Assembly (NCBI GenBank): GCA_011389735.1
Contig: JAABTS010000047.1
Location: 1 to 36,148 of the forward strand
Source of the DNA: Desulfobacteraceae bacterium
GTDB taxonomy: Bacteria > Desulfobacterota > Desulfobacteria > Desulfobacterales > JAABTS01
Length of the DNA stretch: 36,148 nucleotides
Direction of reading: 5' to 3'
The notes under the pieces were generated by a model that saw only the letters and a program-made list of their open reading frames with translations, had not been told where the DNA came from and made no database searches. The stretch's first letter is position 1. Each line of letters starts with the position of its first letter. Positions 20,752-33,882 of the stretch are shown here, one piece after another. A program made the position numbers and the translations under genes.

Positions 20752-21753
20752 TCACCCGCTTATCCAATCATCGACAAGGGTGACAACGCCCCCTCCAGCG
20801 TCCATAGACACCGTAGCGCCGATGGGAAATGTGAACATCGGATGGGTGTGGCTGCAATCAAATTCGGCTAAAATAGGGAAATTTACATCCCCGGCGACTT
20901 CCAAAAGAATTTCCCAGGGCTGCTTACCGGTTCCCTGGTCGTCGAATCGTTCATGCTTTCCGAGCAACAATCCGCCGATCCGTTCAAACACTCCGTTCAA
21001 TTCAAGAAAGGTAAACAACTTTTCGGTAAACGACGCGGTTTTAGCGGTGTCTTCGATCAGGAGAATATCGTTTTCATTGATTTCCGGCATATAAGGGCTT
21101 CCCCATATTCCGGTTATGGCGTTAAGGTTGCCGCATATCGCCCGGCCTTGAGCTGTTCCTGGGTTCACCGTAATCCAACCGTTTTCGCGCTGTTCCTTTG
21201 CTTTTTCCCATTCTTCCCAGTTGATGAATTCATCCGTCCAGAATGGAAAGGGTTTGTATTCATAGGGTTTCTCCGGCTCCATCAAAATATCTCGAAATGA
21301 AGAAAAGGTGTAATCCACGAAAGGGGGGAATTCGCCGAACGATGGAATCAAGGCGGGGCCGTAAAAGGTGATGACGTTTGTTTGAGCGTATACGCCAAGC
21401 TGAATGGCGGTGACATCCGAATATCCGACCAGAATTTTCGGATTTTCGATAAAGGCCGCGTAATCGATATATGGAAGCAGTGAGTTGGAATTGAGCCCGC
21501 CCATTGCGGAAATAATACATTTAATATCCGGATTTCGTATGAGTTCGTTCAATTCGCCGGCTCGTTCCAGGGCGTTCCCCGCCCGGTAAAAATCCTTTTT
21601 ACCCGTCAGGTTTCCCGAAACCAGGTTGAACCCTTTGTTGGATAAATATTCAAGCGAGCGGGCGAATCGTTTCGGCGCCGTGGCCGTAGCCGGAGTCGCA
21701 GGGGAATAAAAGGCGATAGTGTCACCCGTGTTCAGTCTTTCAGGTAATATCAT
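20752..21753 (-). CDS. S66 peptidase, LD-carboxypeptidase/MccF-like
   Basis: About 333 residues. The serine peptidase S66 pattern is present: nucleophile Ser112 in VGYSDVTAIQLG, Glu in LLIEDTAKTASFTEKLF, His in CSHTHPMFTFPIG, and the loop SAMGGLNSNSLLPYID. The last resembles MccF more than the RGGYG loop of LdcA. LdcA trims the terminal D-Ala from murein tetrapeptides during recycling. MccF removes the toxic group of microcin C and related compounds. The sequence fits the MccF-like branch best. ATG 21753 follows GGAGACATTACT, and an upstream TTG is less likely. The gene lies 16 bases after moaA and probably shares its transcript. No signal peptide is seen, so it should be cytoplasmic. Confidence 0.85.
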   Translation of the reverse strand: MILPERLNTGDTIAFYSPATPATATAPKRFARSLEYLSNKGFNLVSGNLTGKKDFYRAGNALERAGELNELIRNPDIKCIISAMGGLNSNSLLPYIDYAAFIENPKILVGYSDVTAIQLGVYAQTNVITFYGPALIPSFGEFPPFVDYTFSSFRDILMEPEKPYEYKPFPFWTDEFINWEEWEKAKEQRENGWITVNPGTAQGRAICGNLNAITGIWGSPYMPEINENDILLIEDTAKTASFTEKLFTFLELNGVFERIGGLLLGKHERFDDQGTGKQPWEILLEVAGDVNFPILAEFDCSHTHPMFTFPIGATVSMDAGGGVVTLVDDWISG

Positions 21754-21769
21754 AGTAATGTCTCCAATC

Positions 21770-22762
21770 TTACCCTCCAATGCACGACATCTCCGCCGGC
21801 GCCCGATAGTCGGGAATCACGCCGAGAGTATGCCGGTGCGGTTTCATTTGAACCGATTCCAGGACGGCCGATTTCAATTTGTCATCGTTTTCACCGTTCC
21901 GGATCAGTGTTTTCAAGTCTATCTGGTCGTTGGACAAGAGGCACGACCTTAGATAACCGCCGGCGGTCAGGCGAAGCCGATTGCACCGGTCGCAAAAATG
22001 ATGGCTAACCGGCCGGATGAACCCGATTTCACCGGCGGCGCCTTTAAATTTATACCGGACGGCCGGTCCGTCATGAATTTCCGCCGCAACCGGAACGGGT
22101 TCGCCCAATGTTTTAATCCTGTTCATGATTTCCGAATACGGCAGAAAAAGTTCCGGAGCCGATGAATGGCTGCTGATGGGCATGTATTCAATGAACCGGA
22201 TATGAAACGGCAGTTTGAACGACAGTGCCGCGATATCGGCTAGTTCGTCGTCATTGATGTTTTTCATGGCCACAACATTCAATTTAATCGGATTCATACC
22301 GGCTTCGTGAGCCGCCTCAATAGCCCTCCAGACCCGGCTGAATCCATCCCGGCCGGAAATGGATTCGTATTTTCGGCGGTTCAAGGTGTCGAGGCTGATA
22401 TTGATGCGTCGAACACCGGCTTTCAGGATGTCTTCAAGATATCGTTCCAGAAGAATACCGTTGGTTGTCAAAGATATATCCGAAAGCGTCTTTATGCCGG
22501 CCAGTTCGTTTAAAAATTCCGGAAGCCCTTTGCGCACAAGCGGTTCGCCGCCGGTAACCCGGATCTTGTTGATTCCCATCGAGGTTCCTATCCGGACAAT
22601 GCGGAGTATTTCTTCGTACCGGAGCACCTCTTCCGGCGGGAGCTTTTTGATCGCGTGTATAGGAGATACGCAGTATACGCATGAAAGATTACAGCGATCC
22701 GTAACGGATACACGAAGATAATTGAGCCTGCGGTTGTATTTATCGATCAGCATACCGGTCAT
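21770..22762 (-). CDS. moaA: GTP 3',8-cyclase, molybdenum cofactor biosynthesis
   Basis: Protein of 330 residues, normal for MoaA, a radical SAM enzyme that converts GTP to 3',8-cyclo-dihydro-GTP in the first step of molybdopterin synthesis. The SAM-cluster motif RCNLSCVYC (Cys24, Cys28, Cys31) is intact. So are TGGEPLVRKG, the second-cluster motif FCDRCNRLRLTAGGYLRSCL, and a C-terminal Gly-Gly (CIGG) required for activity. The start overlaps the stop of the HEAT/PilZ gene upstream (ATGA), so translation is likely coupled. No other moa or moe gene is in the window. Confidence 0.95.
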   Translation of the reverse strand: MTGMLIDKYNRRLNYLRVSVTDRCNLSCVYCVSPIHAIKKLPPEEVLRYEEILRIVRIGTSMGINKIRVTGGEPLVRKGLPEFLNELAGIKTLSDISLTTNGILLERYLEDILKAGVRRINISLDTLNRRKYESISGRDGFSRVWRAIEAAHEAGMNPIKLNVVAMKNINDDELADIAALSFKLPFHIRFIEYMPISSHSSAPELFLPYSEIMNRIKTLGEPVPVAAEIHDGPAVRYKFKGAAGEIGFIRPVSHHFCDRCNRLRLTAGGYLRSCLLSNDQIDLKTLIRNGENDDKLKSAVLESVQMKPHRHTLGVIPDYRAPAEMSCIGG

Positions 22763-25755
22763 TTCTGTTTGGGGATTAAAAGCGGCAAGGGCTCGTCAAA
22801 CGCGAAATGAACGGAAAAGCGATTGGAATCCGGTTTGTTGACGGCGACGATTGCGCCTGTGACGTCGATGGGGTATTGCTGCTTTTTGATCGTCAACGCG
22901 AAGTTTAAATTGAGTCGCCGGTTCAAAAATAAGGACGCTCCTTCATTTTGACCTTCTACCGAAAAACAAAGGCCGCCCGCGCTGATGTTGATCATTTCCC
23001 CGGGTATTTCCGGGCTTTCGGGTTTTTCGGATTCATCGAGCGGCAGACCCGATAATTTGCATGCGTAACCAAGGCGTTTGTATTCCCGCCGGTCAAGATC
23101 TTCCCGGTTACGAATGAGTTCGGAAAATTTTTCATGGTCAAAACAATATCCTTTTAATTTGGATTCCATTTCCGGAAAGTCGGATTTGCATGTTTCCAGG
23201 AATTCGGAGGTGAGGACTTTGATTTCGGCGTCGGTATGGGCGAGGAGTGTTTCGGTGCATACGGTGATTTCGAAAAACGAGCGCGACCCTGCAATATCGC
23301 CGGGAGTCAGTCTTTTGATAAGAATATCTTCGCCGCCGCGCCGAAACGTCAAAGAAAACTCACCCTGTTCGATGAAAAAGAGTTTGTCGTTTGAGCGCCC
23401 CTGTTTTAAAAGCGGTTGTCCGGATTTGACCCGGGCCTTTTTCAATGCGCTATCGAGCGCGCCGGTTTCTTCTTCTGAAAGCCTGTGGTAAAGTCCCGCC
23501 CATTTGGCGGCGTCATCATAGGGGATCGGTTGTTCATCTTCGGGAACCTTGTCTTTGAGCGTATCCGCCGGTCCAGGTTGTTTTTCCTCCTGTATGGATT
23601 CATGCGTCGCGGTATCCGGCTGTTCGACTTTTTCCGGGGGCGCGGTTTTTACCTCCGGCCGCTTTTTGGGTTTTTCTTTCGCATAACTGATTGATTCAAG
23701 AGCCTTTTCGGCCGCCTGTTTCACTTTTTCATCAAAGGGTTTATCCCCCATAAGTCCTTTTTTCCGCTGTCCGATAATTTCCGTCAGATACGATACAGCT
23801 TCCGTGGAACCGATATTGCCCAGGGCGATACAAACTTTTTCGGCGATTTCATTCCGATAGCGGGATTTGTTTTCAAAGAGCGCCAGCAGTTCCGGAACCG
23901 CTTTTTCCGATTCAAGCGCGCCCAGCATCGCGGCGATATCCATTTTCAACCGGTCGTCCGCATCGGATAATTCGGAGATAAGTATTTCTTCCGTTTGAGG
24001 GCCGCCAATATTGTAGATCGCATTGACAGCTTCCCGTTGAACTCTGAAATCACCGAATTTCAGGTAAGGAAGAATCAGTTCGAATTCGGATTCCTTTCCC
24101 GCTTTCCCGATCAACAAAACCAGATTCCGAATAAAATACCACGGTTTTCCCTCGGCGATCCTTTCCGTCAACACCGGCATGGCGAGCGCTCCGATATCGG
24201 TGATAAGCTGGAGAATACGCGACCGTTCATACCGGTCCTTGCTCAATCGCAATAATTCCACAAGGTTTTCGGCCGCCCGGTCACCCAAAATAATCAATAA
24301 CCTGACCGCTTCATCTCGTTTGTCGTTATCGTTTGTCTGGAATTCATTGATTAACGGTTCCAGAACATCATCGGAGGCAATATTGCGAAGTATCGTGCGG
24401 ATCGATTCCTGAATTTCATCATGCTTTTCGATTTCGCCTCGCCGGATCTTTGAAAGCGGGGTAAGAAGCGATTCAGCCTCCTCATAGCGGCCGTTCAAAA
24501 TCATGTCTTGGGCGAGGGTGCGGATCAGAGACCCGAACTGATCCAGCGCAGGCGACGGTTCCGAAATAACGGCAGCCCATTCGGACGCCTTTTTCCCTAA
24601 ACCGGCCAGAAACTCGCCATGAGTTTCCGGGTCCAGTTCGCCGGAAACCGCCGCCAAAACAGGCGCAACCTGTATACATGCGTTTTGGTCGTCACTGCCA
24701 AGCCCTTCGCATAGAGTGCTTAAAATGGCGTAGGCGGATTTAATCTTTTCTTTTGACAGCAATTGACTGACGGTCCTGGGCACGGCTTCAAGCACTTTTT
24801 CATCACCCAGATAAGTGGTTTCACCCTTGAGTATGCTGTTTATTCCCGCGGTCGCATGAGCTCGAAGCGCTTCTTTTTTGGCTTTTTCTTCGGCCTCCCG
24901 GGCTTTCAAAGCCTCCCGATAAGATTTTCCTTTTTCCGATGAAATCAGGCTTTCATAGGCATGCTTAATTGTCTCCGCCTCGGATGAATCAACCCCGCTT
25001 TCTCCGGATTCGATTTCCCGGACAACCCCCCTGAACCGGTCGAGCATTTTGTCAAAACGTTCCTGATCCATATTTTCAACGATATAATTGAGCATTCCAC
25101 TGCCGACATCGCCTCGCATATTTTGGGTGAGAACCATGACTATTACGTCGTCCGGTTTTTTCATCAAGGATTCGGCCAGTAGCCGGGACACCTCGTCTTT
25201 GTATTCGGGTTCGAGGACATCTTCGAGAGTCGATATCATCGGCACAAAGGATTCTTTGACCACATCCGCCCGTTTTTCTCCCTTTTTGGTGACCTCATGG
25301 TTTTTGTCCACGGCGACATAAACCTTCTGGTCAAGCTCGATATGGGGGAGGCGTTCATCTTTCAAGATATTTTGAAGCCCCCCGCCTTCCTTGAGTTCAT
25401 TCGGCTTGCGGCTCATTACCTCCAGAAGAACGCCCAATTCTTCGATCGTCAGTCCTTTTTTCAATGTCAGGCTCTTAATTTCAAGACTGGTCATCAGATC
25501 CTGGAAGGATGTCACCTGAGGCGACCGCCGGTCTTTTTCATCGAGAGGCCGGTCGCAAATCAGCAGTGTGCCTTCAGATTCGGCGAATGCAACCTGGTCC
25601 ATCGATTCAAAAATGATGTTTATATTGTTAAAGGCTTTATCGAGAGCGTTTTTGGTGGAAGTGCTGGTGGATGGATACAGCCGGATATTACGAATCGCGG
25701 CATTAACGCCGATCATCGTCCTGACCGCTTTTTTCTGAATATCGCCGTCCGTCAT
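22759..25755 (-). CDS. HEAT-repeat / cNMP-binding-like / PilZ protein A
   Basis: Protein of 998 residues. Residues 1-150 form a domain seen in other HEAT and signalling proteins (RNIRLYPSTS, then LTIEELGVLLEVM). A helical, lysine/glutamate-rich linker follows (240-300), then a HEAT-type array (about 303-685) that includes KPWYFIRNLVLLIGKAG. Next come a proline/lysine/glutamate-rich linker (690-750), a cyclic-nucleotide-binding-like beta roll (about 775-880; KLFFIEQGEFSLTF, LTPGDIAG), and a PilZ domain (about 888-985). The PilZ domain carries the c-di-GMP motifs RREYKR and NISAGG. The cNMP pocket lacks the usual Glu and Arg-Ser/Thr-Ala positions. It has no membrane segment. It is probably a c-di-GMP-responsive scaffold. 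The start has GGAG 6 bases upstream. Confidence 0.8.
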   Translation of the reverse strand: MTDGDIQKKAVRTMIGVNAAIRNIRLYPSTSTSTKNALDKAFNNINIIFESMDQVAFAESEGTLLICDRPLDEKDRRSPQVTSFQDLMTSLEIKSLTLKKGLTIEELGVLLEVMSRKPNELKEGGGLQNILKDERLPHIELDQKVYVAVDKNHEVTKKGEKRADVVKESFVPMISTLEDVLEPEYKDEVSRLLAESLMKKPDDVIVMVLTQNMRGDVGSGMLNYIVENMDQERFDKMLDRFRGVVREIESGESGVDSSEAETIKHAYESLISSEKGKSYREALKAREAEEKAKKEALRAHATAGINSILKGETTYLGDEKVLEAVPRTVSQLLSKEKIKSAYAILSTLCEGLGSDDQNACIQVAPVLAAVSGELDPETHGEFLAGLGKKASEWAAVISEPSPALDQFGSLIRTLAQDMILNGRYEEAESLLTPLSKIRRGEIEKHDEIQESIRTILRNIASDDVLEPLINEFQTNDNDKRDEAVRLLIILGDRAAENLVELLRLSKDRYERSRILQLITDIGALAMPVLTERIAEGKPWYFIRNLVLLIGKAGKESEFELILPYLKFGDFRVQREAVNAIYNIGGPQTEEILISELSDADDRLKMDIAAMLGALESEKAVPELLALFENKSRYRNEIAEKVCIALGNIGSTEAVSYLTEIIGQRKKGLMGDKPFDEKVKQAAEKALESISYAKEKPKKRPEVKTAPPEKVEQPDTATHESIQEEKQPGPADTLKDKVPEDEQPIPYDDAAKWAGLYHRLSEEETGALDSALKKARVKSGQPLLKQGRSNDKLFFIEQGEFSLTFRRGGEDILIKRLTPGDIAGSRSFFEITVCTETLLAHTDAEIKVLTSEFLETCKSDFPEMESKLKGYCFDHEKFSELIRNREDLDRREYKRLGYACKLSGLPLDESEKPESPEIPGEMINISAGGLCFSVEGQNEGASLFLNRRLNLNFALTIKKQQYPIDVTGAIVAVNKPDSNRFSVHFAFDEPLPLLIPKQK

Positions 25756-25876
25756 GATTGACTCCGAATCCTACAGGTTTAATATTGATTTAGAGTTGAA
25801 TGGGAACCAAAAACAACCTTACGGAAATCTATATCATACTTTCGCGGAAAAATCGACCTTTTTGTCACGGCCCGGA

Positions 25877-28501
25877 TTATGTTGGAATGACGGTTCTCAG
25901 GAATATGTCGTCGCCGCCGCTCTGGTTCGGATCTTCCAGTCTGGCGTTTCCCGTGACTGGAAATACTTCGAGCAATTCAACCGGGATTTCGTCAAATTTT
26001 AAATGCAGCCTGAATTCTTTTTGGGCGTTTCCCTTGTATACGCTTACGACCGATCCGAATTGTTCCACCCGAATGGTCTCATTGTCGAACACCAGATTAA
26101 ATTTGACGCGTACTCGAAGTTGAGTGACGACAGGCAGTAAGGATTGGCCGATGGTCGTGATACAGGCCACGCCGCCGGTGGAAATATCGTTTGCTTTTGC
26201 CGTAAACGGACCGGCTTTGGGCGTATCGTTGTTGTCAAAGAATTGGAGCGACACAGTACCGGATATTGGAAACCGATGGTCGATACGCCTTTCCATGCCG
26301 TATTGTTGGAGGATATCGTTAATGCTTTCCCTGGATTCGCAAAAAGCTCTGACTTTTCGTTCAATACCGGGAAAATAACCGCAAACCGCATCGAAATCCG
26401 CTTTGCTGAGAATACGGAGCTTCACGTCCGACAATGTTCTCATGGATGTTGTAAACACTGAATCCAGAAGAAACGATTCGTATCCGGCGATGTCCCCCGG
26501 GCTCAGGTTTTTGATCCAGACTTCTTCATCGTTCCAGCCGTCGACATCGGTCTTTCCGAAGGGCCGGATAACTTCGCCCTGGTCATACGCCAGCACCAGT
26601 TCGCCTGTTTCGATAAAATACACCCCGGAATTCTTTTTTCCCTGTTTATAAATGAGCTTTCCTTGAGTGCAAACGCCTTCTTTCAGAGTGTGGAAAAACA
26701 CTTTGGCTTCATCTTCGGTCAGCGTGTCATACAATTCCGCCCATCTTTTTCGATGTTCCTCATCGACGCCAGGCAGGCTTTCCACCTTCAATTCCGCATT
26801 GGTTTGATCGCCGGGTTCTGTTTCATGTTTTTCAAGAGGAATCCTCTGAGTCGGGATGGACTGGATCGTATCATCTGCTTCGCCGATCTTGTCAATCGCC
26901 TGGAGTGCTTTGCGAACAAGGGTTTCATTAAGGGGAGACGATGCAAACGCGCCCCGCCGTTCAATGATATCCCGCAGAACCGCCAGAGCTTCGGAAGACT
27001 GGATTCGGCCTAAAATATCTATGATTTTTCCAGCCGATTCGTCCATTTCAGAATCCGGATCAGGCGTTAAAAGCTTCAACAGGTAAGGAACCGCTTTTGT
27101 GCTTTTCATGGATCCGAGCGCCTCCACGATATCCGGGAACAATCGCTGATCGGAATCGGACAGCATGGAAATCAATATGGACTCTTTCTTGTTCCCTCCG
27201 ATTAACGAAACCGTTTTTACGGCCTCCCGCCGGACTCGGATGTCATTGTATTTTAAAAACGGGATAACGTGATTCACATGAGCGCCGTCGCCGACTTCTC
27301 CGAGCAGCAGGATGATGTTCCTGATATAAAACCATTCCTCGGCCTCTTGCAATTGAGAGGTAAGTTCGTTGGCCGCATAAGGCCCGATATCGGTGACGGC
27401 CTGGAGAATTCGAGCCCGCTCGGTTCTGGACGGACTGTCTTTTAACATTACCAGCAAGGGTTCGGTTGCGTATGCTCCAAATTTCGGAAGGAGATTCGCG
27501 ACCTGCTTGCGTTTACCGTTTCTGTCCGTCTGAAATTCATCGATTAAAATTTCAACGACGCCGGAATCCGATATTTCCCGGACTGTTTGATCCGCCAGAT
27601 CCCTCAGCTCTTCATACCCATTCCTTCGCCGGGTCATCAAGGTAAAGAATGTTTCCAGGATATGGTTCGTATCGTTGAACCGCTGTTCTTTGATCAGAAA
27701 AATGACCAGTTCCTTGAGCTGAAAGACGATTTTTTTTACTTCCGGGCTCACTGTCTTTTTCGCTTTCAGCCATCGTATCAACTGAGGTGACAGCGTCGCC
27801 ATAATATCGGTGTATTCCGCATTGATCAGCATTTCGCTGATTTCAACGACGGCGTTGATCGTATCGCTTCGCAGTGCGGGATCTTCGGACAGCAAACCTT
27901 CGGACGCCTTTTTGATAATGGCTATCGCGGTTTTGGCCTTGTTTTCCATCAGCATTTGAGTGACTGCGTCGGGAAGGGATGTCACCAATGTCTGTTTGCT
28001 TTTATACGAAATTTCGCCTTTTAACAATTTGTCTAAATCAGTGTGGAGCCGGGCGTACTTCCTGATTTCCTGAACTTTTTGATCGATCTCCTCTTTTTTT
28101 TGCTTCGCACTCCGCAATCGGCCCTTGGAGGAGTTCATCAAGGTGGAAAGCGCGTTTTCAATACGGACGGCGGCGCTCGTAGAACCGTTTTCATTAAAAA
28201 CCAGATCTTCCCTCTGGCGGCTCAGATCGGATAAAAATTGCTCGAATCGCTGGTCGTCCATCAGATCGATAATTCGATCCATGATCAATCGTTCAAACGA
28301 GGAACGGCCTTTATGGCACAAAAGAGGCAGGATATTTTTGTCTTCAGCCTCGACTACCGAGGCGGCGAAAGTCTGCGCTATTTCAAGCTTTTCTTTGGAA
28401 GGGAGGCGCTGATCGACAGCCTCCAAACACCGTGAAACAATGGTTTCCATAAAATAACAGGCATGATCGACAAAATCGTCCCGGTCAGGTTGTTTATTCA
28501 T
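25877..28501 (-). CDS. HEAT-repeat / cNMP-binding-like / PilZ protein B
   Basis: Protein of 874 residues, a paralogue of protein A with a different N-terminus (1-150, helical; contains KQKKEEIDQKVQEIRKYAR). The shared HEAT module runs about 155-545. It opens with LLKGEISYKSKQ and includes EEWFYIRNIILLLGEVG (about 388-404) and YNDIRVRREAV. A cNMP-like fold follows (about 605-720; VYFIETGELVLAYD, LSPGDIAGYESFLL), again without the Arg-Ser/Thr-Ala pocket signature. The PilZ domain (about 738-845) has RRIDHRF and NDISTGG, so c-di-GMP binding is expected. It has no signal peptide. The gene has its own promoter and a perfect leader hairpin, and ends 121 bases before protein A starts. Confidence 0.8.
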   Translation of the reverse strand: MNKQPDRDDFVDHACYFMETIVSRCLEAVDQRLPSKEKLEIAQTFAASVVEAEDKNILPLLCHKGRSSFERLIMDRIIDLMDDQRFEQFLSDLSRQREDLVFNENGSTSAAVRIENALSTLMNSSKGRLRSAKQKKEEIDQKVQEIRKYARLHTDLDKLLKGEISYKSKQTLVTSLPDAVTQMLMENKAKTAIAIIKKASEGLLSEDPALRSDTINAVVEISEMLINAEYTDIMATLSPQLIRWLKAKKTVSPEVKKIVFQLKELVIFLIKEQRFNDTNHILETFFTLMTRRRNGYEELRDLADQTVREISDSGVVEILIDEFQTDRNGKRKQVANLLPKFGAYATEPLLVMLKDSPSRTERARILQAVTDIGPYAANELTSQLQEAEEWFYIRNIILLLGEVGDGAHVNHVIPFLKYNDIRVRREAVKTVSLIGGNKKESILISMLSDSDQRLFPDIVEALGSMKSTKAVPYLLKLLTPDPDSEMDESAGKIIDILGRIQSSEALAVLRDIIERRGAFASSPLNETLVRKALQAIDKIGEADDTIQSIPTQRIPLEKHETEPGDQTNAELKVESLPGVDEEHRKRWAELYDTLTEDEAKVFFHTLKEGVCTQGKLIYKQGKKNSGVYFIETGELVLAYDQGEVIRPFGKTDVDGWNDEEVWIKNLSPGDIAGYESFLLDSVFTTSMRTLSDVKLRILSKADFDAVCGYFPGIERKVRAFCESRESINDILQQYGMERRIDHRFPISGTVSLQFFDNNDTPKAGPFTAKANDISTGGVACITTIGQSLLPVVTQLRVRVKFNLVFDNETIRVEQFGSVVSVYKGNAQKEFRLHLKFDEIPVELLEVFPVTGNARLEDPNQSGGDDIFLRTVIPT

Positions 28502-28565
28502 GCACGCCTTTCCTTATGGGCTTAAGGGAAGTAACGGAAAATCGGTTTTCGGATATCCTCTTGCT

Positions 28566-28610
28566 GATTGTAAAGGATTTTGGGGCTATTCCCCAAAATC
28601 CTTTACAATC
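28566..28610 (-). promoter_or_regulatory. 20-bp perfect leader hairpin before gene B
   Basis: GATTGTAAAGGATTTTGGGG, a 5-base loop CTATT, and the exact reverse complement. On the minus strand it begins about 16 bases after the predicted start of transcription from the promoter at 28633-28662 and ends 65 bases before the ATG of protein B. No U-run follows on either strand, so a simple intrinsic terminator is unlikely. It could protect or process the 5-prime end, or control translation, or act as a processing site between genes C and B. Confidence 0.7.
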
Positions 28611-28632
28611 GTCATTCTTTGATAATCTGGTG

Positions 28633-28662
28633 ATAATTAGGTAAAATATCGGCTTTTGTCAA
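28633..28662 (-). promoter_or_regulatory. Sigma-70-type promoter of gene B
   Basis: On the minus strand a perfect TTGACA (28657-28662) is followed, 18 bases later, by AATTAT (28633-28638; four of six consensus bases). It sits just downstream of gene C, so proteins B, A, MoaA and the S66 peptidase can be transcribed independently of gene C. Confidence 0.55.
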
Positions 28663-28696
28663 ACGTTTTCCTTTAACGAGACGACAAGCGCTATGG

Positions 28697-29929
28697 TTAG
28701 CTGCTTTTCATAAGCGCATCCGCGGCGGAGGAGCGGATCGAGTCCCAGACGTCTTCGCTGAATCGATGCGGCCTTTTTTGTTTGATCACCTCCACGAGAG
28801 TGGGCATAGCTTCAGGAGATCCGATTTCGCTCAGCGCCTTGCAGATACTTTCGATTACATAAGCGTCCGATTCGCTGTTTTCGGAAGCCGATGATTCCAG
28901 CAATGAAATCATTGGCCGCAAGGCTCGGACGCTCCCGATCGACCCCAACGCCCGGATTAAATTCGGCTTTAAACGTTCATCGCAAGATTCCAGCATTGAA
29001 AGAAATATCCTTTCGCGGTATTTCCCGCCTATATTTAAAATCGTGGACAGGGTCTCACGCTGGACTCGAATATCTTCATGCGCCAGAAAAGGCTTCAAAA
29101 TCTGAAGATGCGCTTCATTGCCCACTTTTCCGAATAACAGAACCAGATTACGGATATAATACCAGGGCCCGCCGCGCATCAAATGTTCGGTCAAAGGCGG
29201 AATAAAAGGATCGCCGATATCGGATATGGTTCTGAGAATCAATATCCGCTCGGACATATCCTCGCTGTTCAAAAGCCGATTCAGCAGCCTTTCCCCCAAA
29301 GGGGCGGCGAGATGAGTCATGCAGGTCAAGGCGTCATCCCGTTTGCCGTGCTTGTTTTCGTGATATTCGTCCAGGAGCGCGTCCACGATCTCTTCGGTCA
29401 CGATGGAATCAAGAGAATCGGAAACCAGCTCCCTGATCGCCCCGTCCTTTCTCACCAGCCCGCTTTCTATCAGATTGAAATCTTCGAGGATGTTTTCACA
29501 TTCCTTGAATTCCGATTGCGTTATCCGCCTTTGCGCCAGTTCGCCGAGTTGTCCGCAAATTTTTCGCATGGAAGACGTTACCGAGGTTTCAATTCGGATC
29601 CAGCTCAATAACCGGCCCGAAAACGTGTTCATCACATCCAGCCGGTCTGTTTCCAGAAGGCGTTCTCCGATCTTCGACAAAGCTCTTGCGATTTCACTCC
29701 GGATCTCAGGCGGTTCGGTAAGCAGCCCGTTACTCAGCCATTGTATAATATTCCCGGAAATCTTCGGCTTGCCTTTATTGTACATATGATCCACAGTGGA
29801 GGGCAGAGCCCGCACCAGTTCGGGGTCTTCAAACGCTGCTGTTTCGCCCTTGAAGATGCTGTCCAAACCCTGTCTCAAATGATCCACCGCTGACCGGATG
29901 GTGTCGTCCCGCATTGTTTTATTTTCCAT
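28697..29929 (-). CDS. HEAT-repeat protein C (minimal paralogue)
   Basis: Protein of 410 residues that consists almost only of the HEAT module shared with proteins A and B. It opens with LDSIFKGETAAFEDPELVRA, as A and B do (both have KGE at this point). It contains GGPWYYIRNLVLLFGKVGNE (about 253-272), HEDIRVQRETL and ALGSIGSVRALRPM, and lacks the cNMP-like and PilZ domains. It has no signal peptide or membrane helix. It could be the adaptor or partner onto which the sensor-bearing paralogues assemble. HEAT arrays bind proteins, and no catalytic motif is visible. The start has only a weak GGGAAT upstream. Confidence 0.75.
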   Translation of the reverse strand: MENKTMRDDTIRSAVDHLRQGLDSIFKGETAAFEDPELVRALPSTVDHMYNKGKPKISGNIIQWLSNGLLTEPPEIRSEIARALSKIGERLLETDRLDVMNTFSGRLLSWIRIETSVTSSMRKICGQLGELAQRRITQSEFKECENILEDFNLIESGLVRKDGAIRELVSDSLDSIVTEEIVDALLDEYHENKHGKRDDALTCMTHLAAPLGERLLNRLLNSEDMSERILILRTISDIGDPFIPPLTEHLMRGGPWYYIRNLVLLFGKVGNEAHLQILKPFLAHEDIRVQRETLSTILNIGGKYRERIFLSMLESCDERLKPNLIRALGSIGSVRALRPMISLLESSASENSESDAYVIESICKALSEIGSPEAMPTLVEVIKQKRPHRFSEDVWDSIRSSAADALMKSS

Positions 29930-30255: not shown

Positions 30256-30358
30256 CCTTCCAGAAATCAAATTTCATTGGGTTGTCGGCCCGGCATATAC
30301 ATAATTCTATTATGTTGAATGTTGGATGTTGAATGTTGAATGTTGGATGTTGAATGTG
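30256..30358. repeat. Dispersed repeat (inverted copy) plus TGTTGAA/TGTTGGA heptamer array
   Basis: CCTTCCAGAAATCAAATTTC (from 30256) is the inverted form of the repeat at 20688-20715. It is followed by CGGCCCGG-ATATAC-TAATT, then CTATTATGTTGAAT, also found at 32788-32820. From 30312, seven-base units alternate TGTTGAA and TGTTGGA up to about 30355. Confidence 0.75.
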
Positions 30359-30670
30359 AGAGCGTGTTTGATAAATTGGGCTTGATGCTAATTGCGGCCA
30401 TAGTTACTCGGGTACTCCGGAGCGCCAAAGCCGGAGTCTTGCGCTTCGTAAGGCGCGGGTTGCAAACCCGCTCAGAGCAAGAGACCCGCTCAGAGGGGGT
30501 TTGCAACCCCCGGCTTACCCTGGCGCTCCGGCCGATCTTAGAACCAAGCCCGATAAATTACATGTGAACGCCTGGAAAATGGCGATATTTAAAAAACGGC
30601 ATATTTCATGAAAATTCAATCATATCAATTGGATATAGCGGCTTAGAGGGTGTTTGAAAAATACCCTCTG
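30359..30670. repeat. Intergenic space with two palindromic GC-rich repeats in opposite orientation
   Basis: One unit (about 30417-30478: CGGAGCGCCAAAGCCGGAGT and GCGGGTTGCAAACCCGC) reads forward. The next (about 30490-30549) is the inverted tail of the 15868-16380 repeat: GGGGGTTTGCAACCCCC, GGCGCTCC, CCGATCTTAGAACC. Together they can form nested hairpins. No gene is seen in the remainder. Confidence 0.75.
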
Positions 30671-30751
30671 AGTCCCCTCATTTAACATTTAACATTTAGC
30701 ATTCAACATAAATATTTTAGCATTCAACACAAATATTTTAGCATTCAACAC
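30671..30751. repeat. Tandem repeats upstream of the split purH
   Basis: CATTTAACATTTAACATTTA is followed by two perfect 21-base copies of AAATATTTTAGCATTCAACAC (30710-30730 and 30731-30751). The block resembles 20597-20671 and ends 44 bases before the IMP cyclohydrolase start, so it lies in or next to that gene's promoter region. Confidence 0.85.
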
Positions 30752-30795
30752 AAAAAATAAAAACCCCGGAAAAAAACAGAAAGGGCGCAAAACGT

Positions 30796-31497
30796 ATGAG
30801 CATCAATCAAGTGAAGAACATTGACGACGGAGTCAAAGTCAACCATGTTTTAATCAGCGTGTCCGATAAAAGCGGGCTCGATGAACTGGTCAACGGACTT
30901 TTAGAAATAAATCCCGGTGTCGGGATTTTCTCCACCGGCGGCACATTCAAGCGGATCAAGGAAATTTTGGGCGGCAGGGCCGATTCAGTGCTGACTCAGG
31001 TGTCGGACTATACGGGACAACCTGAGACTCAGGGAGGTCTGGTCAAGACTCTCGATTTTAAAATTTATCTCGGTCTCCTCACTGAAACCTACAACGATTC
31101 CCATCAGTCGGATCTGGATCGCACCGGCGCCGTCCGTATCGACATGGTTGTCGTGAATCTATATCCGTTCAAGGAAACCATCGCCCGGCAAGACGTAACG
31201 GTCGAAGAGGCCAGGGGCCAGATCGATATCGGCGGGCCGTGCATGATCCGGGCCGCCGCGAAAAATTTTATCCGGGTGGCGCCGCTGACGGATCCATCGG
31301 ATTATTCTGAAGTTCTGAATGAATTAACGAAGAATGAGGGGCGTATCCCTTTTGAAACCCGCTACAAACTGGCTCGAAAGGCGTTTGCGCTTACCGCCGG
31401 ATACGACCAGGCGATCGCCGGCTTTCTATCGGAAAAATCCGTGCATGACGCCGGATCATGTTATGAAAAAATAAATTCCAATAACGAAAAGAGGTAA
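30796..31497 (+). CDS. purH: IMP cyclohydrolase (N-terminal half of PurH as a separate protein)
   Basis: Protein of 233 residues matching the methylglyoxal-synthase-like IMP cyclohydrolase domain of PurH, which closes FAICAR to IMP in the last purine step. SVSDKSGLDELV (21-32), FSTGGTFKRI (45-54), VVNLYPFKETIA (119-130) and DIGGPCMIRAAAKNF (144-158) are all conserved. The normally invariant KTLHPK-HGG phrase here reads KTLDFKIYLGLL, losing both histidines but keeping the lysine. The protein ends after the cyclohydrolase domain, and the transformylase domain follows as its own gene two bases later. Confidence 0.85.
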   Translation: MSINQVKNIDDGVKVNHVLISVSDKSGLDELVNGLLEINPGVGIFSTGGTFKRIKEILGGRADSVLTQVSDYTGQPETQGGLVKTLDFKIYLGLLTETYNDSHQSDLDRTGAVRIDMVVVNLYPFKETIARQDVTVEEARGQIDIGGPCMIRAAAKNFIRVAPLTDPSDYSEVLNELTKNEGRIPFETRYKLARKAFALTAGYDQAIAGFLSEKSVHDAGSCYEKINSNNEKR

Positions 31498-31499
31498 AA

Positions 31500-32750
31500 A
31501 TGACGGAAGATCTCAAAAAAATGTATCGCACAATGGTAAAGGAAAATTTTCCGGCTCAAATGGAAATCAGCTTCATCGACGCCGGCGGACGCCGAACCCT
31601 TCGATACGAAAAAGTCACCTGGCTGATCGACGGTGTGGAAAAGGGATTGCGATACGGTGAAAATCCGGGACAGGAGGCGGCCCTTTACAAACTGGTGAAC
31701 GGAAATCTGATTCTGGGTGATGTGGAAATGATTCGGCCCGGGCAATATTTGACCTCGGATTCGGAATTGATTCAATCCGGTAAACACCCCGGCAAAATCA
31801 ATATCACCGATGTGGACAACGCACTCAATATTCTTCGATATTTTAGTGATAAACCGGGCGCGGTCATTGTAAAACACAATAATCCTTGCGGAGCCGCACT
31901 GGGAAACACCCTTATGGAAGCCTACGACAAAGCCTACATGGCTGACCGCGTTGCCGCTTTCGGAGGGTGTATCGCCCTGAATCGAGCCGTCGATATAGAA
32001 ACGGCCGAAGCTGTTTGCCGTCAATACGCCGAGGTGGTGGCGGCGCCTGATTTTGAGGTAGGCGTCATGGATATTCTAAACAAGAAGAAAAATTTACGCG
32101 TCATTCAAATTCGCAACATGGAAAACCTCCAGGCGTTTGTGGGAAAACGATTCGTGGATTTCAAAAGCTTGATCGACGGGGGCCTTGTGGCGCAATGGTC
32201 TTTCGTGCCGGAAGTGAGAAGCAAAGCGGATTTCAAGCCGGCTGAATGCGAATACAACGGAAAAAAATACGTTATTGAACGCTCTCCGACGGATAAGGAA
32301 TATGAAGATATGGTGTTTGGATGGCTGGTGGAATCCGGAGTCACGTCCAATTCCGTCATTTACGTCAAGGATCTCGCCACCGTAGGGATCGGCACGGGCG
32401 AACAGGACCGGGTCGGAGTGGCTGAAATCGCCAGAGACAAGGCCTATCGCAAAATGGCGGACCGTTACTGTTATCAAACCTACGGCGTGGCCTACAACGA
32501 TTTGAAAGACGAAGACAAGAAAAAAGAAATCGATAACCGGACCGCCCTGGAAAAAGGCGGGCTTATCGGAGCATCAATGATCAGCGACGCATTTTTCCCC
32601 TTCCGGGACGGCGTCGACGTGGGGATCCGGGAAGGTGTTTCAAGCGTGGTCCAGGCAGGCGGGTCGGCCAATGATTATCAATCCATCGAAGCCTGTAACG
32701 AAGCCGGAGCAACCATGGTGTTTACCGGCCAGAGGAGTTTTAAACACTAG
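31500..32750 (+). CDS. purH: AICAR formyltransferase (C-terminal half of PurH as a separate protein)
   Basis: Protein of 416 residues corresponding to the AICAR transformylase domain, which transfers a formyl group from 10-formyl-THF to AICAR. LRYGENPGQEAALYK (50-64) and the catalytic Lys-His phrase IVKHNNPCGAA (123-133) are present. So are FGGCIALNRAVD, ASMISDAFFPFRDGVD and the final GATMVFTGQRSFKH. GAGGTAAAA overlaps the upstream stop and serves as ribosome binding site, with the ATG two bases after the TAA. The two purH halves are clearly co-translated. A separate N-terminal extension of about 40 residues precedes the domain. Confidence 0.9.
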   Translation: MTEDLKKMYRTMVKENFPAQMEISFIDAGGRRTLRYEKVTWLIDGVEKGLRYGENPGQEAALYKLVNGNLILGDVEMIRPGQYLTSDSELIQSGKHPGKINITDVDNALNILRYFSDKPGAVIVKHNNPCGAALGNTLMEAYDKAYMADRVAAFGGCIALNRAVDIETAEAVCRQYAEVVAAPDFEVGVMDILNKKKNLRVIQIRNMENLQAFVGKRFVDFKSLIDGGLVAQWSFVPEVRSKADFKPAECEYNGKKYVIERSPTDKEYEDMVFGWLVESGVTSNSVIYVKDLATVGIGTGEQDRVGVAEIARDKAYRKMADRYCYQTYGVAYNDLKDEDKKKEIDNRTALEKGGLIGASMISDAFFPFRDGVDVGIREGVSSVVQAGGSANDYQSIEACNEAGATMVFTGQRSFKH

Positions 32751-32939: not shown

Positions 32940-33470
32940 TTATTCGGCGCGGTTGACATTCATGGAATCATAAGATCTGAAAATCAGACATTCCTTGTGT
33001 CTCCTGGGCTCGGGAAGCGGCTCCGCTGAAAGCGTAGGGAGCGCTTTTTCAGCCGCGTCTTTTGAAAACAAAGCCGCCATTCCTTCTCCAACAGGCTTTC
33101 CGGTCAATGCGTCCATCACAATAGCTTCGGCTCCGTCAGATACGGCGGCGAACGGAATTTGACGGTCATTGATAATCCTTGCGGCGCTGACGGCTTCGCG
33201 TTCCCTTGACCCCAGCGACCCCGCCGCGCATTTGATCACCATGAAAGGTTCGCCGCCAACGCTGGCCACAATGTCGATTTTGGTGGCGTAAGTTTCATTG
33301 GAAACATTGATTTTAAAGGGCCTGCCCACCTCGATATCGGTTTTAAGCCATCCTTTTTTATCAACCAGATATCGCAACACGGCCTGCCGGTTTGCCTCCG
33401 CTCCAGTATTGGGGATTGAAGCCGATGTGATGTAATCCGTTATAAATTCAACATGTGTGGGTGATTCCAT
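32940..33470 (-). CDS. HSDR_N-like protein (type I restriction R subunit N-terminal fold)
   Basis: About 176 residues. It resembles the stand-alone proteins labelled type I restriction enzyme R N-terminal domain (PF13588-like): ANRQAVLRYLVDKKGW (26-41), KIDIVASVGGEPFMVIKCAA (64-83), then SREREAVSAARI and IPFAAVSDGAEAIVMDALTG. In true nucleases the second strand ends in E-x-K. Here it reads VIKCAA, so the catalytic Glu and the second Lys are changed, while the Asp at 66 remains. No helicase domain follows. Its role is unknown and nuclease activity is doubtful. The start at 33470 has GGAGAG upstream; a longer form to 33575 is unlikely. Confidence 0.7.
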   Translation of the reverse strand: MESPTHVEFITDYITSASIPNTGAEANRQAVLRYLVDKKGWLKTDIEVGRPFKINVSNETYATKIDIVASVGGEPFMVIKCAAGSLGSREREAVSAARIINDRQIPFAAVSDGAEAIVMDALTGKPVGEGMAALFSKDAAEKALPTLSAEPLPEPRRHKECLIFRSYDSMNVNRAE

Positions 33471-33882
33471 AATAGTCTTTCTCTCCGTTTTATCTCGGTA
33501 TAGAGCGCCTCTGAAATATTTGAAACAGCGAATCGCGGCTTTTTTTCGGCCCGGCCCGGGCGGAAATCGAATCATTTTTACAGGATCGATAGCTGAGTAT
33601 CAAGGAAAATTTTCCTGATCATATCGGATTTCGGGAAGGTAATTTAATGCTGAAAAGCTATATCTGTTTTTAAATCCAATACCCTTGAATGAATACCATG
33701 CACCCGGTTTTATCCCCGTAGAACAGGCATCCTTGCCTGTTTATACCGCCTGTCGGCGCCGTTTTTAATGTTGTTCAAAAATATGAATCGTATTCATGCC
33801 TGCCGAAAGCACACTTAAATTCTGAATCCTTTATGTCGAATCGCATAAAAATAATGAGGATGTGATTGTATGAAAATTTATA
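33471..33882. other. Intergenic stretch with short palindromes
   Basis: No gene is seen. It contains the hairpin AACAGGCA-TCCT-TGCCTGTT (33722-33741), a type common as a dispersed palindrome in environmental genomes. It also contains one copy of the dispersed motif CATGCCTGCCGAAAGCACAC (33795-33814). Confidence 0.55.

Follow-up and report, generated by a model that had tools for sequence, protein, structure and literature searches.

Three HEAT-repeat genes stand side by side in the window (the whole 36,148-nucleotide stretch of DNA analyzed here, which is contig C385 of a 477-contig assembly), and two of them continue into a cNMP-like and a PilZ domain. The locus raises the question of what such a union of a helical-repeat scaffold with a putative second-messenger sensor might do, and whether the products of the three genes, denoted A, B, and C, act together, as a preliminary description of this DNA had proposed in the form of a c-di-GMP-responsive assembly.

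Module composition of the three paralogs

The three genes share a strand, are separated by intergenic gaps of 121 and 195 nt, and retain intact frames with a coding-like base composition by codon position (Table 1). Pairwise BLASTP comparison of A with B (29% identity over 832 aa, 9e-107), A with C (31%, 4e-60), and B with C (34%, 4e-63) confirms that they are true paralogs, with a similarity far beyond chance. In the HMM check, Pfam places HEAT_2 in all three proteins and cNMP_binding and PilZ in A and B, each above its gathering cut-off; NCBIfam yields only matches far below cut-off. The paralogy and the domain order first described for this cluster are thus upheld, and the W-(Y/F)-(Y/F)-RN motif that had been pointed out as common to the three proteins proves to be a hallmark of the entire family, PW(Y/F)(Y/F)xRN, in which W539, R543, and N544 are conserved in 98%, 98%, and 97%, respectively, of the aligned rows that cover the motif.

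Table 1. Features of the window, with coordinates, strand, and the evidence for each assignment
Feature	Position	Strand	Description	Evidence
Gene C	28697..29929	-	410 aa; HEAT module only (HEAT ~17-407)	Pfam HEAT_2 2.2e-18; HEAT profile 389 bits
Gene B	25877..28501	-	874 aa; helical region 22-146, HEAT 151-542, cNMP 583-733, PilZ 734-840	Pfam HEAT_2 1.2e-15, cNMP_binding 9e-9, PilZ 2e-5 (25.3 bits, cut-off 22.5); profiles
PilZ of B (residues 734-840)	25982..26302	-	RIDHR and DISTGG	Pfam, profile, sequence
Gene A	22759..25755	-	998 aa; N domain 3-152, helical region 170-295, HEAT 300-692, disordered linker ~702-745, cNMP 750-883, PilZ 886-991	Pfam HEAT_2 9e-19, cNMP_binding 1.9e-10, PilZ 2e-7 (31.7 bits, cut-off 22.5); profiles; AlphaFold2
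N domain of A (residues 1-150)	25306..25755	-	unnamed alpha/beta domain, RLYP motif	no Pfam match
PilZ of A (residues 886-991)	22783..23100	-	RxxxR = R890/R894; (D/N)xSxxG = N923, S925, G928	alignment columns, 63 homologs
moaA	21770..22762	-	begins within the final 4 nt of gene A (ATGA)	Pfam Radical_SAM and Mob_synth_C
S66 LD-carboxypeptidase gene	20752-21780		overlaps moaA by 11 nt	
purH	30796..32750	+	divergent, split in two ORFs; recurring upstream neighbor	Pfam
Inverted repeat between C and B	28566..28610		perfect 20 bp, 5-nt loop; single copy in genome; no T run on the C-to-B strand	

Profiles for the individual domains, cut from an alignment of relatives, reveal a common plan for the family that consists of an N domain (~150 aa), a helical region M, the HEAT module (~390 aa), a helical segment T, and the cNMP and PilZ domains. 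A corresponds to N-M-HEAT-cNMP-PilZ, B to M-HEAT-cNMP-PilZ, and C to HEAT only; segment T, which precedes cNMP in most relatives, is not recognizable in A or B, and inspection of the DNA around C for eroded remnants of N, cNMP, or PilZ revealed none that could be recognized. The locus therefore harbors three side-by-side copies of an undescribed family that joins a helical-repeat scaffold to a predicted c-di-GMP sensor. In the literature searched we found no description of a HEAT-cNMP-PilZ architecture, nor of an alpha-solenoid scaffold fused directly to a c-di-GMP receptor. An extended version of the plan is seen in genome G475, where a 1680-aa fused relative (L187:7013-12055) matches helical M four times in tandem ahead of HEAT-T-cNMP-PilZ.

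An AlphaFold2 model of A, obtained with 94 sequences (mean pLDDT 89.7, pTM 0.56), comprises a confidently modeled N domain, an uninterrupted helical solenoid, the disordered linker, and the cNMP and PilZ barrels. Residues 300-694 are all-helical with pLDDT mostly >90, as befits a HEAT solenoid, and Foldseek matches this region to PP2A-A-like structures and the cNMP barrel to CRP/PKA-like ones, with Thermus CAP superimposing on the barrel at an rmsd of 2.8 Å over 132 columns; profile searches, which match PKA/PKG and CRP/FNR chains, further support the cNMP fold. Given a pTM of 0.56 and a disordered linker of ~45 residues, a relay from one domain of A to another is something that we infer rather than read from the model. 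The solenoid resembles PP2A A-subunit-like HEAT/PBS-lyase scaffolds in its fold and in its HEAT_2 and HEAT_PBS matches but is distinguished by its own conserved W-x-x-x-R-N signature and by fusion to a signaling receptor.

PilZ and cNMP sites

The PilZ motifs RxxxR and (D/N)xSxxG, reported as intact in the preliminary description, are essentially invariant across the 63 homologs: R890, R894, D/N at position 923, and G928 (A numbering) are found in 63/63 and S925 in 62/63. The cNMP domain has the fold of a cyclic-mononucleotide receptor but not its Arg + Glu cassette. The ligand arginine of the phosphate-binding cassette is absent in 63/63, with positions 833 to 836 occupied mostly by C/S, T, V/T, and S/T, and the cassette glutamate (position 820) is retained in only 9 of the 63, with Asp in its place in 41. 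Taken together, these patterns suggest that the c-di-GMP site is likely used and that the cyclic-mononucleotide site departs from the canonical type; as judged from these residues, conventional binding of cyclic mononucleotides by the cNMP domain is unlikely. In lacking the arginine, the domain resembles those barrels of the FNR type that make no use of cAMP. A and B share the barrel fold with CRP/FNR-type proteins, but the arginine is missing from every family member and no DNA-binding domain was found. With PilZ c-di-GMP receptors (the YcgR class and multi-domain PilZ proteins) they share a PilZ domain that carries both motifs; they differ in that no YcgR N domain was identified and in that their PilZ domain is joined to both a HEAT solenoid and a cNMP-fold barrel. 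The same genome contains 19 GGDEF and 10 PilZ matches, gene A being among the latter, and c-di-GMP is thus very probably made in this organism. An Rfam scan of the window returned no RNA family, and hence no known c-di-GMP riboswitch.

Scaffold-receptor linkage and the origin of the trio

The family profile matches 123 of 390 genomes in a class-wide sample (1e-25), some via the cNMP-PilZ part only, a tally that, like those below, rests on metagenome-assembled genomes (MAGs), some of which are incomplete. When named contigs were searched, A as a single-protein query gave no match and an alignment-based query gave 29 loci; the named relatives belong for the most part to Desulfobacteraceae and allied MAGs, among them the Olavius algarvensis Delta 4 endosymbiont. 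Among 126 genomes of the order, cNMP-PilZ is present in 23 of the 29 that bear HEAT, where ~12 would be expected (29 x 52/126; Fisher p 2.6e-6, a value that ignores relatedness). The two modules are fused in 14 of these 23 genomes, directly adjacent in five (G070, G111, G127, G230, and G306, the last apparently a fused gene with a frame break), unlinked in three (G026, G039, and G079), and undecidable in one, where contigs end (G082). Fused genes occur in families f3, f9, f11, f15, f18, f19, f52, and f62 and, outside the class, in f85 and f163; f60 instead has two adjoining genes in constant order, one for N-M-HEAT (~570-760 aa) and one for T-cNMP-PilZ (~333-375 aa). Of the functional evidence that we obtained, this pattern of gene fusion is the strongest, and the fused or adjacent state of the modules in relatives makes it very likely that the HEAT scaffold and the cNMP-PilZ sensor work as a unit. 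At the threshold used, no cNMP-PilZ relative is seen in six of the 29 genomes that bear HEAT, which argues that the scaffold can also work without one, and the HEAT module is absent from 29 of the 52 cNMP-PilZ-bearing genomes. A T-cNMP-PilZ protein of about 340 aa is encoded in many genomes (L109-L119, L161, L163-L165), with no family HEAT gene seen beside it in L109-L119.

The N domain of A is the only copy detected in its genome. The N-M region, modeled separately, reaches a pLDDT of 90.2, and a Foldseek search with the modeled N domain and helical region as query gave no PDB match at E<=0.001. Elsewhere in the phylum, the N domain also heads N-HD-GYP proteins, and in other families a shorter N-HEAT gene (about 530 aa) adjoins a gene for a ~450-aa N-domain protein with an HD_5 domain and HD...GYP motifs. 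Such neighbors were recognized at three loci by Pfam and inspection (L179, L180, and L181) and at thirteen by motif (L197, L199, L200, L203, L205, L208, L209, L211-L214, L217, and L220). These pairs share the N domain and the HEAT module with A by profile, although the HEAT match is much weaker (about 77-154 bits versus 300-500) and the partner is an HD-GYP enzyme rather than a PilZ receptor. HD-GYP proteins are typically c-di-GMP phosphodiesterases, but their substrates vary and not all act on c-di-GMP. N-HEAT genes beside HD-GYP genes provide a second, predicted genetic link to c-di-GMP.

The C-B-A order was sought in loci from order-, class-, and phylum-level searches, in which no genome of the same family was listed, and was not seen elsewhere. 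Its nearest match is family f23 (L038, L102, and L103), the one other family with a tandem pair, in which N-M-HEAT is followed by HEAT-cNMP-PilZ and then by moaA; because the neighborhood maps derive from a longest-ORF caller, antisense ORFs can mask genes, as they do N-M-HEAT in L102 and L103. The claim of a conserved three-component assembly is therefore not supported. In a tree of the cNMP-PilZ part, B groups with the f23 gene that precedes moaA (support 100/98) and A with f62 (99/86), which indicates that A and B are old paralogs. A recent duplication of A and B was considered and, given these two well-supported groups, is not supported for this part. The HEAT-module tree has an unresolved backbone with end branches of 0.8-1.1 for A, B, and C; the tree neither supports nor rejects a clade of all three (p-AU 0.384), nor does it reject trees in which B or C joins the copies from f23. 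We suggest that the three adjacent genes may represent a lineage-specific tandem set, with N-HEAT plus cNMP-PilZ as the basic unit of the family.

Predicted c-di-GMP adaptors, alternatives, and gene context

On the basis of conserved sequence features, we favor a reading, to which we assign a probability of roughly 0.62, in which A and B are adaptor- or scaffold-type receptors predicted to bind c-di-GMP. The C-terminal PilZ domain would bind c-di-GMP, as its motif conservation suggests; the cNMP-fold barrel, having lost the cyclic-nucleotide arginine, may serve as an interaction or relay domain; and the PilZ-cNMP unit would control what the HEAT solenoid, together with the N domain in A, can bind. 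B would add a second receptor sharing the HEAT scaffold, and C, which has no receptor part, would be a scaffold subunit able to bridge partners or to compete for them. PilZ proteins usually target motility or surface-polysaccharide machinery. Of the c-di-GMP-responsive A-B-C assembly originally envisaged, the c-di-GMP-responsive HEAT scaffold survives, given the PilZ motifs in 63 homologs, module fusion or adjacency, and the 19 GGDEF matches, and the conserved C-B-A arrangement is not supported; assembly of the three proteins is conceivable but has a low probability. More tentatively, the unnamed N domain and the HEAT solenoid might form the shared core of a modular c-di-GMP adaptor system that extends across the phylum. 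The partner of this core would be an N-domain HD-GYP enzyme (the eraser side) in one branch and a fused or adjacent cNMP-PilZ receptor (the reader side) in another, and in this genome the core would have been expanded to three proteins, one of them free of a receptor. To our knowledge, c-di-GMP effectors in sulfate-reducing Desulfobacterota are largely unmapped; the family, if correctly interpreted, would offer a handle on what c-di-GMP controls in such marine and sediment bacteria and would put a name to a new N-terminal domain that connects a branch of PilZ receptors to one of HD-GYP proteins.

The same data might instead reflect three independent paralogs with separate targets; the cluster would then be no more than what is left of a tandem duplication, and C a scaffold that is decaying or unrelated. 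The old and separate branches of the A and B cNMP-PilZ parts and the deep divergence of each HEAT module are consistent with this, but the three intact, coding-like frames and the co-linear order kept beside moaA in two families, which suggests some constraint, make it rather improbable. That A, B, and C constitute a single hetero-oligomer, with C bridging A and B via the common HEAT module, is doubtful: the shared module, the common strand, the short intergenic gaps (121 and 195 nt), and the tandem pair in f23 argue for it, but C-B-A was found in no other genome, the three HEAT modules differ at about two thirds of positions, and most family members are single genes, which indicates that the fold needs no paralogous partners. 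Integration of two second messengers in one protein, with cAMP or cGMP bound by cNMP and c-di-GMP by PilZ, draws on the cNMP fold seen by Pfam, profile matches, and Foldseek and is unlikely in view of the altered cassette. An operon that couples c-di-GMP sensing to molybdenum-cofactor (moaA) or purine (purH) synthesis is very improbable, since the ATGA overlap and the moaA adjacency in f23 that speak for it, along with purH in the loci listed below, are offset by unrelated neighbors in other families (gpmI, rsfS, nadD, and proB in f60), so that the link is not maintained.

The 4-nt overlap of A with moaA was verified, and moaA recurs next to family members in all three f23 loci; with unrelated housekeeping neighbors elsewhere, the coupling of A, moaA, and the S66 peptidase gene is probably operon or chromosomal context rather than part of a signaling module. 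purH lies near family members at five loci in five families (the window, L038, L040, L046, and L087; upstream in L038), which suggests an old chromosomal position. The 20-bp inverted repeat between C and B is possibly an mRNA processing or attenuation hairpin. Beyond purH, the window encodes an HSDR_N_2 protein (32940-33575), homologs of which are found directly upstream of the f60 N-HEAT gene, hinting at an older shared neighborhood. Finally, the long gap between C and purH contains tandem repeats based on ATGTTGAATG and, about 330 nt from them, a second set that is roughly complementary (30310-30367 and 30679-30754).
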